Of a stretch of 64,000 bases of DNA, positions 47,095 to 56,058 are shown one piece after another; position 1 is the first letter of the stretch, and each line of letters begins with the position of its first letter. The stretch is from Leisingera sp. S132 (GTDB lineage Bacteria > Pseudomonadota > Alphaproteobacteria > Rhodobacterales > Rhodobacteraceae): contig NZ_CP083553.1 in the NCBI RefSeq assembly GCF_025144465.1, forward strand, positions 3,788,001 to 3,852,000. The letters are read 5' to 3'. Below the pieces are notes generated by a model that saw only the letters and a list, made by a program, of their open reading frames with translations, did not search any database and was not told the DNA's origin. The translations under genes and the position numbers were made by a program.

Positions 47095-48092
47095 CAGGGC
47101 CTCAGCTTGTCGAGATTTTGCGGGGTTGGGGCTGGCAGGCTGTCACGCAAAAGGCCTGCCACCGGGGCCAGTGCCGGATGCTCCAGCCCGCGGATGAAAT
47201 GGTCCCAGACGCGCGGGATCAGATCCACATAATGCGGCTTGCCGTAGTCTAGGCTGAGTCTGGCAAAGACACCGAGAATACGCAGATTCCTCTGCACGCC
47301 CAGCACGGTATAGGCGGTACGGAAGCCGGATTCATCAGCGCCGTCAGCTGCTATATAGCGGCTGATCATTTGCATCTCGATTCCGGCGGGCACGTCGCGG
47401 CGGGCGTCTTGAAGAAGAGAAACAAGATCGTATGCGGGGTGGCCTGCGCGTGCGTCCTGAAAATCCAGAAGGCCCACGCGGGCGACACCGTCCCGGTCCG
47501 GCAGCCACAGCAGATTTTCTGCGTGGTAGTCCCGCTGCACCAGGACCGGATCACCCTTCACCGTTTCGCGAAGGATGTCCTCGAACTGGTTTTCGAACCG
47601 TGACTGCAGCTCCGGGTCGTGGCCGCCTTGAATCCCATCGCGGTATTTTAACAGCGCGAGCCCGGCCATTTCCGCCATAAGCCGCGGACCGTAGGGTTCC
47701 AGTTCCGGCATCGGCGCTTGATGAAGGGCAACCAGAGTGTCTGTTGCGGCCTCATAAAGTTCCCTTTCCAGAACCGGTTCCCGTTCTATGACGCGGGCAT
47801 AAAGGTCGTCGCCCAAATCCTCCAGCAGCAGAAAACCGTTCTCAACATCCTTGGCCAGAATCTCCGGTGCACTGAGGCCCTGGGCACGGAGGTATTCGGC
47901 AATGCGGATGAAGGGCCGGACGTCCTCGCCTTTCTCTGGCGGCGCATCCATAAGCACGGCAGTCCCGCCGCCGGTATTTGTAAGCCGTTCATAACGCCTG
48001 TTGGAGGCGTCGCCAGCCAGCGGTCTGCGCTGCCAGCTGGCATAGGGGGTATGCGACAAAAAACTTTCGCACAGGGTGTTACGCTTGGTCAT
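47094..48092 (-). CDS. amgK: Anomeric MurNAc/GlcNAc kinase (AmgK-like)
   Basis: The 332-residue protein is an aminoglycoside-phosphotransferase-fold kinase. It has GDASNRRYER near residue 30, the catalytic loop VQRDYHAENLLWL and the metal motif VGLLDFQDA. In Pseudomonas, AmgK phosphorylates the anomeric position of recovered MurNAc, which MurU then activates; the same order is here. It is coupled by four-base overlaps to tsaE upstream and murU downstream. The start is the ATG at 48092. Confidence 0.85.
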   Translation of the reverse strand: MTKRNTLCESFLSHTPYASWQRRPLAGDASNRRYERLTNTGGGTAVLMDAPPEKGEDVRPFIRIAEYLRAQGLSAPEILAKDVENGFLLLEDLGDDLYARVIEREPVLERELYEAATDTLVALHQAPMPELEPYGPRLMAEMAGLALLKYRDGIQGGHDPELQSRFENQFEDILRETVKGDPVLVQRDYHAENLLWLPDRDGVARVGLLDFQDARAGHPAYDLVSLLQDARRDVPAGIEMQMISRYIAADGADESGFRTAYTVLGVQRNLRILGVFARLSLDYGKPHYVDLIPRVWDHFIRGLEHPALAPVAGLLRDSLPAPTPQNLDKLRP

Positions 48093-48565
48093 GCGCAGAT
48101 GCGCTCCATCAGGGGCTGCCATTTTGTGTCGCTCCAGCGGAGCGCCAACTGGCGGCGGTCTTCGTGTTCCGGGTCCAGGGCCAGTGTCAGATGCAACGCG
48201 TGCGGCGGCGTCAGTTCCTGCAACCTGTCAGGCCACTCGACCAGGCAGATCGCGTTGTCGAAGGCTTCGGTCAGGCCCAGCTCCTCCAGCTCATTCAAGG
48301 AGGACAGACGGTAAAGGTCGGTGTGCCACAGCTCGCCGGCGGGCACCTCATAGGTTTGCACCAATGTGAAGGTGGGCGAAGGCACATCTTCAGGCACGCC
48401 CATCAGCGACTGGATCAGATGGCGGGCGAAATGCGTCTTTCCGGCGCCGATTACACCTTCCAGCAACAAGCAATCGCCGGGGCGCAGAGCTCCGGCGATT
48501 CGGGCGGCCAGCTCGGCCGTTTCCTCAGGCGAATTCAGCGTGCAAGCCGCGGTTTTTGTGGTCAT
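48089..48565 (-). CDS. tsaE: tRNA threonylcarbamoyladenosine ATPase TsaE
   Basis: The 158-residue ATPase works with TsaB and TsaD to make t6A37 in tRNAs; TsaD is encoded at about 59 kb. The Walker A motif is LLEGVIGAGKTHFARHLI (about residue 38), then SPTFTLVQTYE and HTDLYRLSSLNELEELGL. The gene is the family's usual length and follows the PAS-only gene by 49 bases. It overlaps the amgK start (ATGA). Confidence 0.95.
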   Translation of the reverse strand: MTTKTAACTLNSPEETAELAARIAGALRPGDCLLLEGVIGAGKTHFARHLIQSLMGVPEDVPSPTFTLVQTYEVPAGELWHTDLYRLSSLNELEELGLTEAFDNAICLVEWPDRLQELTPPHALHLTLALDPEHEDRRQLALRWSDTKWQPLMERICA

Positions 48566-48614: not shown

Positions 48615-50162
48615 TCAGTCTTGCGGGTTGGAGGCAAAGCGTTCCTGGCCCGCCGGAAGGGCAGCTGCTTCGGGCTTTCGGAAGCTGACCATAGTGGCGC
48701 CGTTCTGGATTGCCGTTACCTTGCAGACCATCTTGGTGCCACTGCGCAGCTGAACATGGGACCACCAGGCCTCGCGCCCTTCGCAGCCCGCAACGAAGTC
48801 CCGGATTTCGCCCCAGACCGGCGTCGGCGCGCAGGTATCCTGCCATATCCGGCTGGCGTCCATGATCGATACTTTGGCAAAGCTGGAGTCCGGATCCATC
48901 TGCCACAGGTTGTCATACGCGCTGTTCGAGAAGCTCAGGCTGCCGTCATTGGCGAACACCGCGATGGCTTCGTCCATCTGGTCCAGGATCGACTGCCCCA
49001 TTTCCAGCTCAGAGCGGAACTGGCGGGTCAGCGTGACTTCGGCAGTAATATCCTCGAACAGGAAGGCGATGGCGCCGTCCGGATGCGGCCGGCCGGAGAC
49101 CTTGTAGACAGAGCCTGACGGCAGCGACCAGGTTTCCTGGTACCGGCCCTCGGCAGCGGCTTCCAGCAGGTCGGCCATCTGGTGGCGCCAGCTGGAATAG
49201 CTTTTGGGCTCCGGCATCATCCTTTGGTCGCGCAACCGGTCGAAGAAAGTGAGCAGGTTGGGCCGCGAGCTGAGGAAATTGGCCGGCAATGCGGTCAGGT
49301 CGATCAGCACCGGATTGAACAGCACCAGCTGGCGGTTGCGGTCAAAGATCGCCAGGCCGATCGACAGCTGCGCAAAGGTCTTGGCCAGGGTCTGCACAAA
49401 ATTGCGCTGGGCAACCTCGGCGTCGACCACGGCGTTCACGTCGACCGCATGGCAGAGCCAGCCGGCCTCGGTCTCAGTGGTCGAAACATTGTACCAAAGC
49501 TTCTTGCCGCTGTCCGGCAGCGGAATGTGAATCCGCTCAGGCTTGCCGCTTGTCATCGGATCGTGGAGGTCCGTGAACAAGGGATCTGCAAAATCAGAAC
49601 TGCGGCCGCGAATCTTCTGGTTAAGATTGTCGTAAGCAAGATTGGACCAAGTGACGTTTCCTTCCTCCGACTGCAGCCAGACCGGGTAGGGGGCCTGATG
49701 CACGGCTGCGCGCAAGGTGGTCAGCTCCTGATCCAAGGACTTGTTCTGTTCTTCCAATGTGCTGCGGCGCAGCTGCACGCGGGTGACACCGTCAATCCAC
49801 TCGCAATGCGCCTCGCGGCTTTCAGCCGCGGCAGTGCCTGACAGCACAAGCGGTCCCACATCCTTGAGAAAACCGGGCGATTGCGGCAGGCCGGGGTAGC
49901 TGCGGGCCAGCTGGTCGCGCAGCATGCTCCAGTCAAAATTCTCTGCCTGGTCGCCGATAAACTTGCCGGCGCCGGAGGACCAGCCGATCAGGCTGCTGTC
50001 GTCAAACAGAAAGACGGCGTCGGTTCGGCCGTCAGCGGCAAGCAGATCATGCTCCATGCCATTGCGCCGCGGCGTGGGCGACAACCACCAGACTGCGGCT
50101 GCAGCCGTGGCGGCACACAGCGCGGCCAGTACAAACCATTCGATCGAAGCGAAATCCTGCAT
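48615..50162 (-). CDS. PAS-domain protein without kinase domain, at the DivL-type locus
   Basis: The 515-residue protein has one N-terminal transmembrane helix (VLAALCAATAAAAVWWL), then three PAS-like regions (about 150-255, 265-385, 385-490). Motifs such as NVTWSNLAYDNLNQK, FDRNRQLVLFNPVLIDL and FANDGSLSFSNSAYDNLW mark PAS folds. There is no His-box, no N/G box and no HATPase region, so it cannot be a kinase itself. The neighbourhood (ahcY-side sensor, then tsaE, amgK, murU, addB, addA, trxA) is where other alphaproteobacteria encode a DivL-type kinase. A perfect CtrA box lies 49-67 bases upstream. Confidence 0.8.
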   Translation of the reverse strand: MQDFASIEWFVLAALCAATAAAAVWWLSPTPRRNGMEHDLLAADGRTDAVFLFDDSSLIGWSSGAGKFIGDQAENFDWSMLRDQLARSYPGLPQSPGFLKDVGPLVLSGTAAAESREAHCEWIDGVTRVQLRRSTLEEQNKSLDQELTTLRAAVHQAPYPVWLQSEEGNVTWSNLAYDNLNQKIRGRSSDFADPLFTDLHDPMTSGKPERIHIPLPDSGKKLWYNVSTTETEAGWLCHAVDVNAVVDAEVAQRNFVQTLAKTFAQLSIGLAIFDRNRQLVLFNPVLIDLTALPANFLSSRPNLLTFFDRLRDQRMMPEPKSYSSWRHQMADLLEAAAEGRYQETWSLPSGSVYKVSGRPHPDGAIAFLFEDITAEVTLTRQFRSELEMGQSILDQMDEAIAVFANDGSLSFSNSAYDNLWQMDPDSSFAKVSIMDASRIWQDTCAPTPVWGEIRDFVAGCEGREAWWSHVQLRSGTKMVCKVTAIQNGATMVSFRKPEAAALPAGQERFASNPQD

Positions 50163-50210
50163 GTCTTCCTGCCTAGCTCAGCTCTCGTTTGCCCTCATGG
50201 TTCCCTAAAA

Positions 50211-50229
50211 ATGGTTAAATGAAGTTTAA
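50211..50229 (-). promoter_or_regulatory. Perfect CtrA box upstream of the PAS-only gene
   Basis: On the minus strand the sequence reads TTAA-ACTTCAT-TTAA-CCAT: two TTAA half-sites at exactly 7 bases, and the second extended to TTAACCAT. This is the full CtrA consensus, about 50 bases before the PAS-only start and close to the end of regB. Confidence 0.7.
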
Positions 50230-50251
50230 TTGGTTTCCCAAAAGTGAATAG

Positions 50252-51646
50252 TTAAATTTCTAAAGGCAAATTTTTTCCGGTAACAGGGCCTCCTGCTTCT
50301 ATGGCGTCGATTTTCTCGCGCGGCCAGACCACTTCAACGATGGCACCGCGCCCTTCGGGCGTATGCGACGCACTTTGGATCTGGTCCCAGTCATTGGCGA
50401 ACTTCAGCCGTGCCCCGGTGCGCTGAAGCAGTGTCTTGGCAATAAACAGCCCCAAACCCATGCCCTCATACTCCGGGCGCTGCTTCAGTTCGCTTTCCCC
50501 CCGGCGGCGGCGCACGAACGGGTCGCCGATGCGGCCGAGCAGATGCGGCGGGAAGCCTTGGCCGTCATCGCTGATCAGAAGAACGATACGTTCGTCGTTC
50601 CAGGCCGCATTGATCCAAACGGTGGACTTGGAGAAGTCGACCGCGTTCTGGACCAGATTGCGCAGCCCGTGAATGATCTCTGGCTTGCGCAGGACCGTGG
50701 GCTGCTGAAAGCTCCCGCCTTCCAGCGGTTCCTCGTGGTAAAGCACCGCCTTGCCGCGATGCATGTGCGGCTCTGCAGCCTCGGTCACCAAAGTTGACAG
50801 CGGTGCCTGGCGCAGGTGCAGGTCGTCCTTGCCCGCCCGCCCCATGCTGCGCAGGATATCCCGGCAGCGGTCCGCCTGTTCGCGGATCAGGGCAGCGTCC
50901 TCACGCAGGTCCGGCCGGTCGTCCAGCTCCTCGATCAGCTCGGCGCTGGTCAGCTTGATTGTGGCCAGCGGGGTACCCAGTTCATGCGCCGCTGCGGCAA
51001 CAACGCCGCCGAGGTCAGTCAGTTTCTGTTCGCGTGACAAGGCCAGCTGGGTGGCGCTCAGCGCGTCCGACATCAGCCGCATCTCGTTGCTGACCCGGAA
51101 GGAGTAGGCGCCGATGAAAAGAATCGCGATGACGATGGCAATCCAGTTGCCAAAAATGAACACATCCGGGATCCGCAGGATGAACCCCTGCTCCGTCCGC
51201 AGAGGCAGGTGGAATTCAGCCATCAGGGTGACCAGAATGATGGCGGTTGCCCCGATAATCAGGGTGGAGCGCAGCCCCATCACCGCCGCGGAAATCGTCA
51301 CGGGTCCAAGCACAAGCAAGGCAAAGGGGTTGTTCAGCCCGCCGGTCAGGTAAACCAGAAAGGCAAGCTGGAGCAGGTCGAACAGCACCATCAGGAAATT
51401 TTCGAACTCGCTGAGGCGCTTGTTTTCCGGAAAAGCAAAGATGGCAATCAGGTTGCCGGCCGCGGAGATGCCGATCGCCAGGTAACATAACCCCAGTTCC
51501 AGCTGCAGGTTGAACCGGTGCTGTGCCACCGCAATAGCCGTGATCTGGCCGGCAATGGCCACCCAGCGCAGCAGGATAAGTGTCCGCAGCCGGACCCAAT
51601 GACTGTGATCGTGGCTGCTTGCCAGCATGAAAAGTCGATCGTTCAT
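50252..51646 (-). CDS. regB: Redox-sensing histidine kinase RegB (PrrB)
   Basis: The 464-residue kinase senses membrane redox state and controls photosynthesis, respiration, nitrogen and carbon genes through RegA. Six transmembrane helices span residues about 25-180. The quinone-sensing motif is TGGLNNPFALL (about 101-111). The H-box is AAAAHELGTPLATIK with His221; Cys261 in EQADRCRDILRSMG aligns with the redox-active Cys265 of Rhodobacter RegB (40 residues after the His). The ATPase lobe has NLVQNAVDFS and ISDDGQGFPP. The start at 51646 avoids a long overlap with senC. Confidence 0.95.
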   Translation of the reverse strand: MNDRLFMLASSHDHSHWVRLRTLILLRWVAIAGQITAIAVAQHRFNLQLELGLCYLAIGISAAGNLIAIFAFPENKRLSEFENFLMVLFDLLQLAFLVYLTGGLNNPFALLVLGPVTISAAVMGLRSTLIIGATAIILVTLMAEFHLPLRTEQGFILRIPDVFIFGNWIAIVIAILFIGAYSFRVSNEMRLMSDALSATQLALSREQKLTDLGGVVAAAAHELGTPLATIKLTSAELIEELDDRPDLREDAALIREQADRCRDILRSMGRAGKDDLHLRQAPLSTLVTEAAEPHMHRGKAVLYHEEPLEGGSFQQPTVLRKPEIIHGLRNLVQNAVDFSKSTVWINAAWNDERIVLLISDDGQGFPPHLLGRIGDPFVRRRRGESELKQRPEYEGMGLGLFIAKTLLQRTGARLKFANDWDQIQSASHTPEGRGAIVEVVWPREKIDAIEAGGPVTGKNLPLEI

Positions 51647-51763
51647 CCGGTTCCGGTGCTCCCGCAGATGTGACGCCGTGCGCCAGTTGCATCGGCCGTA
51701 TTTCTTGATAGGTCTGGCGCCGCAAACGATCAACAACCCTTCCCAGACGAAAAGTGTGATCCC

Positions 51764-52384
51764 ATGACCCGCGTCTTTGCTCTCCTCGCTGCTGCTTTTG
51801 TCGCTGCCCTTGTGGGCGGTGTCTGGTTTCTGACACGTGGGGGCGGCGGGGGTGACAAATTCGCGCAGTGCCGCAGCAGTCAGATTGCAGGCGGCAGTGA
51901 AACCATCGGCGGGCCGTTCGAACTGATCAATGCCAAGGGCGAAACCGTCACCGACAAAGATGTGATCACCGAGCCGTCCATCGTCTATTTCGGCTACACC
52001 TTCTGTCCCGATGTCTGCCCGATGGACGCCGCCCGCAATGCAGACGCCATCGACGTTCTGGCGAAGCGCGGCATTAGTGCGACACCAGTGTTCATTTCCA
52101 TCGACCCGGACCGCGATACCCCTGAAGCCGTTGGTGATTTCGCTGCCAACCTGCACGAGAAGATGATCGGGTTGACAGGTTCGCTGGAGCAGGTGAAGGC
52201 GGCCAGCAAGGCCTACAAGACCTACTTCAAGAAGAACGAAGGGGATGAGGATTATTACCTCGTCGACCACACAACCATGTCCTACCTGGTCCTGCCCGAG
52301 GAAGGTTTTGTTGAGTTCTTCCGACGCGATGAAACGGCGGAGCAGATGGCCGACAAGACAGCCTGCTTTGTCGGGAAAATCTGA
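51764..52384 (+). CDS. senC: SCO1/SenC/PrrC copper chaperone-like protein
   Basis: The 206-residue protein has an N-terminal signal-anchor (VFALLAAAFVAALVGGVWFL) and a thioredoxin-like SCO domain with the copper ligands in FCPDVCPMDAAR and His in VDHTTMSY. It helps insert copper into cytochrome oxidase and is part of the RegB signalling unit in Rhodobacter. It is divergent from regB and 79 bases upstream of regA. Confidence 0.93.
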   Translation: MTRVFALLAAAFVAALVGGVWFLTRGGGGGDKFAQCRSSQIAGGSETIGGPFELINAKGETVTDKDVITEPSIVYFGYTFCPDVCPMDAARNADAIDVLAKRGISATPVFISIDPDRDTPEAVGDFAANLHEKMIGLTGSLEQVKAASKAYKTYFKKNEGDEDYYLVDHTTMSYLVLPEEGFVEFFRRDETAEQMADKTACFVGKI

Positions 52385-52463
52385 AGCAGGATAGCTGTTT
52401 GACCTTTTCCCCTGCACGGACATATTCTTGCGCCAATAGATAAAACCGCGCGGAGGACCGGGC

Positions 52464-53018
52464 ATGGCCGAAACTGCTCTGCAGGACATTGGACCTGACA
52501 AGACACTGCTGCTCGTGGATGATGACGAGCCGTTCCTGCGGCGCTTGGCCAAGGCAATGGAGAAACGCGGCTTCGAGGTAGAGACCGCGGGATCTGTTGC
52601 CGCAGGCAGCGCCATCGCTACCGCCCGCCCGCCGGCCTATGCCGTGGTTGATCTGCGGCTGGAGGACGGCAATGGCCTGGATGTGGTTGAGGTACTGCGC
52701 GAGAAACGCCCCGACAGCCGGGTTGTGGTTCTGACCGGCTATGGCGCCATCGCCACCGCAGTGGCAGCGGTCAAGATCGGCGCGACCGATTACCTGTCCA
52801 AGCCGGCCGATGCCACAGACATCATGAACGCGCTGCTGTCCACCGGAGATGAGCTGCCGCCGCCGCCGGAAAACCCGATGAGCGCCGACCGGGTGCGCTG
52901 GGAACACATCCAGCGGATCTATGAGCTCTGCGACCGCAATGTCTCGGAAACCGCCCGCCGGCTGAATATGCACCGCCGCACCCTGCAGCGGATCCTGGCC
53001 AAGCGCAGCCCGCGCTGA
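52464..53018 (+). CDS. regA: Response regulator RegA (PrrA)
   Basis: The 184-residue regulator has a receiver domain (VDDDEPFLRRLAKAMEKRGF at the start; phospho-Asp in AVVDLRLEDGNGLDVV near residue 63; conserved Lys in YLSKPADAT) and a C-terminal Fis-type helix-turn-helix (NVSETARRLNMHRRTLQRIL). It is the DNA-binding partner of RegB. The hvrA gene that follows regA in Rhodobacter is not seen, although ahcY, also a Rhodobacter neighbour, is 1.6 kb on. Confidence 0.96.
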   Translation: MAETALQDIGPDKTLLLVDDDEPFLRRLAKAMEKRGFEVETAGSVAAGSAIATARPPAYAVVDLRLEDGNGLDVVEVLREKRPDSRVVVLTGYGAIATAVAAVKIGATDYLSKPADATDIMNALLSTGDELPPPPENPMSADRVRWEHIQRIYELCDRNVSETARRLNMHRRTLQRILAKRSPR

Positions 53019-54496: not shown

Positions 54497-54646
54497 CTTT
54501 GGCTGCCTGACAGGCTTCCCCACCTGCCTGACACATGACGAAAAGCCTGAGCCAGCGGCTCCGGCAGCGGGTATCTTCGTTGAATATCAACTATTGCAGT
54601 GCTAGGCCCTGCACCAAGTGTACTCGCAACCGGAATGGAGCAGACT

Positions 54647-56035
54647 ATGGCCGGGGATTATATCGTCAAAGACATCGCGCTGGCAGGCTTTGGCCGCAAA
54701 GAGCTGGACATCGCTGAAACCGAAATGCCGGGCCTGATGGCGCTGCGCGAAGAATACGGCGCAAGCAAGCCGCTGAAGGGCGCCCGCATCGTCGGCTCGC
54801 TGCATATGACCATTCAGACCGCTGTGCTGATCGAAACGCTGGTGGCGCTGGGCGCGGATGTGCGCTGGGCCTCCTGCAACATCTTCTCGACCCAGGATCA
54901 TGCCGCCGCGGCGATTGCCGAAGCCGGCATTCCTGTCTTCGCGATCAAGGGCCAGACCCTTGAAGAGCATTGGGACTATCTCGACAAATCCTTCATGTTC
55001 CCCGAAGGTGCCAACTTGATCCTGGACGATGGCGGCGACGCCACCCTCTATGTGCTGCTGGGCGCCCGCGCCGAAGCAGGCGAAGACATCATCCCGGTGC
55101 CGCAGTCCGAAGAGGAAGCGGTCATCAAGGCGCAGATCCAGAAACGCATGGAGGCCTCCCCGGGCTGGTTCACCAAGACCCGCAACGCGATCCTGGGCGT
55201 GTCCGAGGAAACCACCACCGGCGTCCACCGACTGTACGAGCTGCAGAAGAACGGCCAGCTGCCGTTCCCGGCGATCAACGTGAACGACTCGGTCACCAAG
55301 TCGAAGTTCGACAACAAATACGGCTGCAAGGAATCGCTGGTCGACGGCATCCGCCGCGCTACCGACACCATGATGGCTGGCAAGGTTGCCGTGGTTTGCG
55401 GTTACGGCGATGTGGGCAAAGGCTCCGCAGCCTCCCTGCGCGGCGCCGGCGCCCGGGTGAAAGTCACTGAAGCCGACCCGATCTGCGCCCTGCAGGCAGC
55501 CATGGATGGATTTGAAGTGGTGCTGCTGGAAGAGGAAGTCGGTTCCGCCGACATCTTCATCACCACCACCGGCAACAAGGACGTGATCCGCATCGAGCAC
55601 ATGCGCGAGATGAAGGACATGGCGATTGTCGGTAACATCGGCCACTTCGACAATGAAATTCAGGTCGCCGCGCTGAAGAACCACAAGTGGACCAACATTA
55701 AGGACCAGGTGGATATGATCGAGATGCCCTCGGGCAACCGCATCATCCTGCTGTCCGAAGGCCGCCTGCTGAACCTCGGCAACGCCACCGGCCACCCGTC
55801 GTTCGTGATGTCGGCCTCCTTCACCAACCAGGTGCTGGCCCAGATCGAGCTGTGGACCCGCGGCGACAACTACGAAAACGACGTCTACATCCTGCCCAAG
55901 CACCTGGACGAGAAAGTCGCCCGCCTGCATCTGGGCCGCATCGGCGTCAAGCTGACCCAGCTGAGCTCTGAGCAGGCCGCCTATATCGGCGTCAAGCCGG
56001 AAGGCCCGTTCAAGCCGGAGCACTACCGCTACTAA
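54647..56035 (+). CDS. ahcY: Adenosylhomocysteinase
   Basis: The 462-residue enzyme splits S-adenosylhomocysteine to adenosine and homocysteine, relieving product inhibition of methyltransferases. Family blocks: [31 protein letters not shown], the NAD site [21 protein letters not shown] and the C-terminal [13 protein letters not shown]. The approximately 40-residue insert seen in bacterial forms is present. The ATG at 54647 follows GGAG at 7 bases. No SAH-type riboswitch was recognised in the 150-base leader. Confidence 0.97.
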
Positions 56036-56058
56036 GCGGGAGCAGCAGAACACAAAAC

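Follow-up and report, generated by a model that had tools for sequence, protein, structure and literature searches.

DivL proteins without a kinase domain were described in the Rhodobacterales by Brilli 2010 (PMC2877005), where DivK is given as absent, control of divL by CtrA is predicted and feedback is mentioned. In D. shibae, mutants in ctrA, cckA and chpT show reduced divL, and the divL promoter has a CtrA site (Wang 2014, PMC4046655). In R. capsulatus, the divL transcript goes down in ctrA knockouts and up only mildly on ctrA overexpression (Fogg 2019, PMC6363796). DivL of R. capsulatus promotes CtrA phosphorylation through CckA (Westbye 2018, as cited in PMC9143464), and the phenotypes published for divL in this species relate to CtrA and to the gene transfer agent (cited in PMC9143464). 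The R. capsulatus gene rcc00042 and the D. shibae gene Dshi_3433 are named divL in PMC6473078, which also names as DivL in D. shibae the product of Dshi_3346, with kinase and receiver domains. Long and short DivLs have been mapped on a tree together with DivK by Vega-Baray 2022 (PMC9430884), with degenerate long DivLs appearing after the loss of DivK.

The gene studied here lies in a window of 64,000 nucleotides, the whole stretch of DNA that was analysed. An earlier note had taken it for a kinase-less DivL-like protein with a CtrA box and possible feedback from CtrA; the observation is real and was largely rightly read, and such a gene had already been published (Brilli 2010, PMC2877005). The features on which the comparison draws are the following.

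48089..48565, minus strand: tsaE (TIGR00150, 100.6 bits, cut-off 60.1)
48615..50162, minus strand: divL, short kinase-less form of 515 aa, an open reading frame with PAS families only, collinear with long DivL
48678..48968, minus strand: PAS module D, residues ~399-495, from the model, collinear with the last PAS of long DivL
49050..49361, minus strand: PAS module C, residues ~268-371, the best conserved part (PAS_7 at 264-376)
49440..49682, minus strand: PAS-like module B, residues ~161-241, from the model, with a weak PAS match at 150-178 below cut-off
49764..50018, minus strand: PAS-like module A, residues ~49-133, degenerate, from the model only
50082..50147, minus strand: N-terminal hydrophobic helix, residues 6-27, predicted membrane anchor (model and sequence)
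50163..50251, minus strand: regB-divL intergenic region of 89 bases with a predicted promoter
50214..50229, minus strand: CtrA-type box TTAAACTTCATTTAAC, exact TTAA-N7-TTAAC, with CCAT continuing to 50211
50252..51628, minus strand: regB (NF045988, 773.6 bits, cut-off 570, residues 330-774), start inferred
54647..56032, plus strand: ahcY

The divL frame is open and complete. In a Pfam search of the 515-aa protein, PAS_7 scored over its cut-off (62.3 bits, two stretches), and the HisKA and HATPase families gave no match up to E=1, in line with the earlier description of a protein without a histidine-kinase domain. An AlphaFold model built from 22 family sequences reached a pLDDT of 80.8 and a pTM of 0.40, a value at which the relative placing of the PAS modules is unsure. 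By our reading of the strands and helices of this model, four PAS-like modules would follow the helix. The protein had been described as membrane-anchored with three PAS-like regions; a predicted N-terminal anchor and tandem PAS modules are indeed present, but the count of three missed the degenerate N-terminal module. Fifteen of the 20 columns that are invariant across 22 diverse members fall at residues 269-371, within module C. Foldseek matches of the model in the PDB were PAS proteins, among them the redox or oxygen sensors PpsR, DosP and FixL. A kinase part hidden behind a frameshift or in an adjacent frame was rejected. We see no room for it at divL: tsaE starts 49 bases after the divL stop codon, and the RegB upstream matches positions 7-451 of a 462-position model.

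The regB open frame extends further than the listed gene (50252-52615, minus strand, 787 aa), and the RegB model covers residues 330-774 only. Translation probably begins near 51628, at about residue 330, because the model matches from this residue and the earlier part of the frame runs opposite senC (51764-52384, plus strand). Between divL and ahcY the window holds regB, senC (Pfam SCO1-SenC) and regA. Family matches also place tsaE, amgK, murU, addB and addA near divL, those of murU and amgK scoring under the NCBIfam cut-offs, so that these neighbours named in the earlier note were recovered, with ahcY close by. A frame opposite ahcY (54605-56053, minus strand) received no name from Pfam or NCBIfam.

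Judged from sequence, the window protein is a DivL orthologue and not a full-length pseudokinase, a reading that follows from a profile alignment, a structural match of the long forms and the shared tsaE/amgK/ahcY neighbourhood. A profile of 22 short-form proteins aligned with a profile of 10 long forms over 456 columns (hhalign probability 100, E 5.2e-69), and the alignment stops short of the HisKA part that the long forms have. The best solved structure for the long profile was Caulobacter DivL (4q20, "Sensor protein DivL", E 1.6e-56; next 2.8e-45). Four long forms from outgroup families all carry HisKA and HATPase over cut-offs and, in 4/4, a tyrosine at the phosphoacceptor position, which is a mark of Caulobacter DivL (PMC4211667). 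The DHp-CA half with this tyrosine is absent from the window protein. The proposal of a DivL-type locus held up in the outgroup synteny: tsaE was found at 4/4 loci, amgK at 3/4 (L065, L066, L068) and ahcY at 3/4 (L065, L068, L069). All of ahcY, divL, tsaE and amgK are close together in L065 only, and tsaE is 3.2-5.3 kb off in the other three. Within the family, regB and tsaE flank divL at most loci, and deep members hold long forms at this same regB-divL-tsaE locus, which supports a loss of the kinase half, as had been proposed.

The intergenic region between regB and divL contains the box TTAAACTTCATTTAAC, 51 bases before the divL ATG. A perfect box about 50 bases before the gene had been noticed before; it is an exact TTAA-N7-TTAAC and is conserved in relatives. 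No other exact TTAA-N7-TTAAC occurs in the 64-kb window, where 0.05 would be expected, and 5 of 100 shuffled windows held at least one. Among distinct divL loci of relatives that have a regB match, the exact 16-mer lay within 200 bases upstream of the start at 122 of 158, compared with 0.3 in dinucleotide shuffles. Since the exact-box count shifts with the choice of start codon, a later count used a stretch from -300 to +150 of the open-frame start and found the box at 109 of 153 loci (20 same-genus copies dropped, later loci added), leaving 44 without it in the searched stretch; the two counts differ in locus set and window. Other spacers (4, 5, 6, 8, 9 and 10) occurred at divL in 0 to 2 of the 153 loci, and elsewhere in the same loci there were 7 exact sites in 1,049,065 bases. 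Chance as the source of the box was rejected on the window expectation and on the loci of relatives, which lie far above shuffles, and we regard it as very unlikely. It is mainly the half sites that are conserved, because the seven spacer bases vary among loci. In 76%, TTAAC is followed by C, and 27-32 bases after the box start there is a weak AA-NN-TT element. Among the best 80 named loci, which share genera with other loci and are not independent, the exact box is present at 76, a regB match at 79 and a tsaE match at all 80; the closest are five Leisingera loci at 92-96% identity and one MAG at 99%. The box before divL is thus a strong candidate for a CtrA footprint, as a predicted site.

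Across the whole genome the exact motif alone is a weak marker, with 28 matches on both strands, about twice the 15 of a reversed control. One such box lies between yicC and a divergent gene for a PAS_5 protein (G000:C1:1692775-1692790, locus L040). This protein has a weak match to MopJ, a motility and cell-cycle regulator (39.3 bits, cut-off 200), and a second network PAS protein, weakly MopJ-like, may therefore be under CtrA. Another, exact on both strands, is found 3.6 kb past the window end, flanked by a MotB-like gene and a gene for a copper nitrite reductase (G000:C1:3855649-3855665, locus L056). Of 20 scanned box-adjacent genes in the genome, 6 had an NCBIfam match at 1e-5, including these two and the weakly MopJ-like one, which does not suffice to define a regulon.

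The same genome carries ctrA (430.2 bits, cut-off 350) and chpT (93 bits, cut-off 22.9). The sequence GTAACGAGGCATTAAC starts 75 bases before the ctrA ATG and has the form GTAAC-N6-TTAAC, which is that quoted for the R. capsulatus ctrA promoter (PMC6363796). We propose, with a probability of roughly 0.82, that the window gene encodes a short Rhodobacterales DivL that acts through CckA to favour phosphorylated CtrA, which in turn activates divL in a feedback loop. The membrane-anchored row of PAS modules would be the remainder of the pseudokinase DivL after loss of the DHp-CA half, the part that in Caulobacter senses phosphorylated DivK. Most likely, the short DivL would contact the hybrid kinase CckA and favour its kinase activity, and with it CtrA phosphorylation, and phosphorylated CtrA would bind the box before divL and activate the gene, closing the loop. 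The contact with CckA, the direction in which DivL acts and the choice of activation over repression are put forward by analogy with published work in relatives, as is modulation of CckA-CtrA with feedback as a whole.

CtrA can also repress genes in Caulobacter, and its assignment to this box comes from sequence only. The box might accordingly serve CtrA as a repressor, or another regulator with a TTAA-type half site, with no positive feedback. We consider this unlikely. The fall, not rise, of divL when ctrA is mutated in D. shibae and R. capsulatus (PMC4046655, PMC6363796) speaks against it, as does the distance between the box start and the first start codon in frame (quartiles 45, 61 and 65 bases), which is near that of the CtrA-bound gafA site, usually 65-71 bases (PMC6363796).

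The gene neighbourhood gives some weight to another proposal, namely that the PAS protein is an accessory sensor of the redox system RegB-RegA and not of CckA-CtrA. A regB match is present at 158 of 167 distinct loci and at 79 of the best 80 named ones, nearly all relatives have regB next to divL in the same orientation, and the structural matches include PpsR, DosP and FixL, although these may be general PAS matches. Yet the four outgroup DivL loci, with tsaE, gave no regB match within their 16-17 kb, so that regB is probably a later arrival. Moreover, the divL promoter holds a CtrA-type box, and the divL phenotypes published for R. capsulatus involve CtrA and also the gene transfer agent (as cited in PMC9143464). 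We judge a role as RegB sensor to be improbable.

A decaying, functionless remnant, to which the stepwise decay of the C-terminal half, the split or stop-bearing copies in some genera and the 24 of 248 family genomes without a match might point, is highly improbable in view of a match in the other 224, twenty invariant columns across 22 diverse members, a box conserved while its spacer varies, and a divL phenotype in R. capsulatus (cited in PMC9143464, PMC6363796).

The short DivL with its CtrA-type box stands at one end of a range of forms within the family. A long-profile search found a long DivL reaching through the HisKA region in at least 12 of 394 family genomes. In Pfam, HisKA scored over its cut-off in 9 of these 12 long forms and below it in 3; HATPase passed its cut-off in one, by 0.1 bit, gave a weak match in 6 and none in 5. 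The HATPase part has decayed in 11 of the 12. Four of the family long DivLs (L060, L200, L201 and L296) have histidine, not tyrosine, at the phosphoacceptor position, and their HATPase either scores under the Pfam cut-off or is not seen; tyrosine occurs in L207 and L300, and the remaining long forms have other residues, as read by eye. Six further loci (L059, L063, L195, L301, L303 and L304) have C-terminal tails of ~160-270 aa after the last PAS, in which Pfam showed neither HisKA nor HATPase; from their sequence, these tails look like decayed DHp-CA remnants. The 118-aa tail of L307 was counted as a tail, and its end looks low-complexity. Two candidates were set aside. L205 had seemed to be kinase-less and deep-branching, but the match runs up to a contig edge in a genome that is 76% complete; the long tail of L199 is read-through into tsaE and was not treated as a tail in the tree.

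Copies of divL that are split over two frames or have internal stops occur at G132:C5:389726-391065, on G139:C14 and C247, and at G029:C3:2932426-2933957, and whole-gene loss may be under way in those lines, or these may be assembly errors. The genome that contains the window has one match to its DivL; two divL paralogues are reported in several Rhodobacterales in PMC8116508.

DivK was sought in 38 genomes with a query from an outgroup genome (G045), named from its sequence, whose gene precedes a PleD-like gene. Among the 12 long-form genomes, 6 have a DivK 71-81% identical to the query (G098, G410, G061, G431, G028 and G238) and 2 a divergent DivK-like protein (50% in G024, 48% in G145); in the other four (G127, G381, G361 and G319), nothing exceeded 42% among the matches listed. 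The 19 family genomes with tail-only or short forms gave nothing above 41% among the matches listed. In the 7 outgroups, identity was at least 79% in six, one of them the query's own genome, and 52% in one. In the genome of the window, the best match by E-value among those listed was 35% identical, in a 230-aa frame, and the highest identity was 37%. The short DivL without a kinase half is thus found in a genome in which DivK was not detected.

The exact box also varies with the form of DivL. At 173 loci with a regB match, it was present in 1 of 11 long forms with a HisKA-type score and in 128 of 162 others. The latter comprise 118 of 146 forms without a tail (L205 being entered as having no tail and no box), 4 of 7 with a tail over 100 aa (one of the four being the L199 artefact) and 6 of 9 with a tail of 46-100 aa. 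The best box had one mismatch at 22 of the 173 loci and two or more at another 22, and no outgroup locus (0/4) had an exact box. The single long form with the box, G319, has HisKA below cut-off, and DivK was not found in its genome. In a tree of RegB with the DivL sensor half, built from 75 rows (13 of them of odd make-up) without the DHp-CA columns, the long forms branch off successively below the short ones. A RegB-only tree gave a similar order with weaker support and a long-branch warning, and placed L060/L296 and L200/L201 in the other order; it was rooted by choice on L203 and L299, whose deepest place is not a result. Both trees come from quick searches with SH-aLRT only and have many open forks. 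A link between box gain and kinase loss was not significant on the tree, where HisKA changes only 2 times and yields 2 independent pairs, too small a number to reach significance, nor was it with tails counted as kinase (5 pairs). The box state changes 18 times on the RegB and DivL tree, so that the box has also often been lost or altered. The contrast between box and kinase form, resting on about one evolutionary origin, is suggestive only.

With somewhat less than even confidence, we propose an order in which decay of the DivL ATPase came first, followed by divergence and loss of DivK, and then by decay of the DHp part at about the time that the box before divL was gained. A post-translational input, from phosphorylated DivK to DivL, would in this way be replaced by a transcriptional one, from CtrA to divL. 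The forms seen suggest, without proving it, that loss of the tail was the last step, after HisKA decay and box gain. In this order, G024 and G145, with DivK-like proteins at 50 and 48%, HisKA kept and no exact box, would be intermediates, as would G319, with a decayed HisKA, DivK not detected and a box. The DivK kept in 6 of 12 long-form genomes differs from the order given in PMC9430884, although the sampling and naming of deep groups may not match between that source and ours.

To the published picture our analysis adds a dense footprint of the CtrA box before divL, together with intermediate forms whose series suggests, short of proof, an order of rewiring. Our literature search, mostly without subscription papers and supplements, found no family-wide box count or series of DivK, HisKA and box, and we make no claim of absence on this basis. 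The window divL itself belongs, as an ordinary member, to a group already described. It is of value because it marks one end of a graded series within a single family, along which a pseudokinase loses its docking half and a regulator gains a promoter site, so that the order of CtrA-network rewiring could be tested in living intermediates and not only by comparing Caulobacter with Rhodobacter.

Set beside known systems, the window protein shares with DivL of Caulobacter crescentus (4q20) a membrane anchor followed by PAS domains (PMC4211667), but is without the DHp-CA half and the docking surface for phosphorylated DivK that the Caulobacter protein possesses (PMC4211667). It resembles the short DivLs of the Rhodobacterales (rcc00042, Dshi_3433 and that of R. 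sphaeroides), a likeness drawn from published descriptions: these are described as PAS-only, order-wide, and predicted or shown to depend on CtrA. We know of nothing in which they differ from the window protein; none of the best 80 named loci carries the name of one of these species. The long DivLs of deep family members (L203, L060, L207 and others) differ in keeping the HisKA region (9/12 over the Pfam cut-off), in a CA part or remnant in 7/12, and in having an exact box at only 1/11 loci with regB in view, but they share with the window protein the regB-divL-tsaE locus in most cases and a collinear PAS half.
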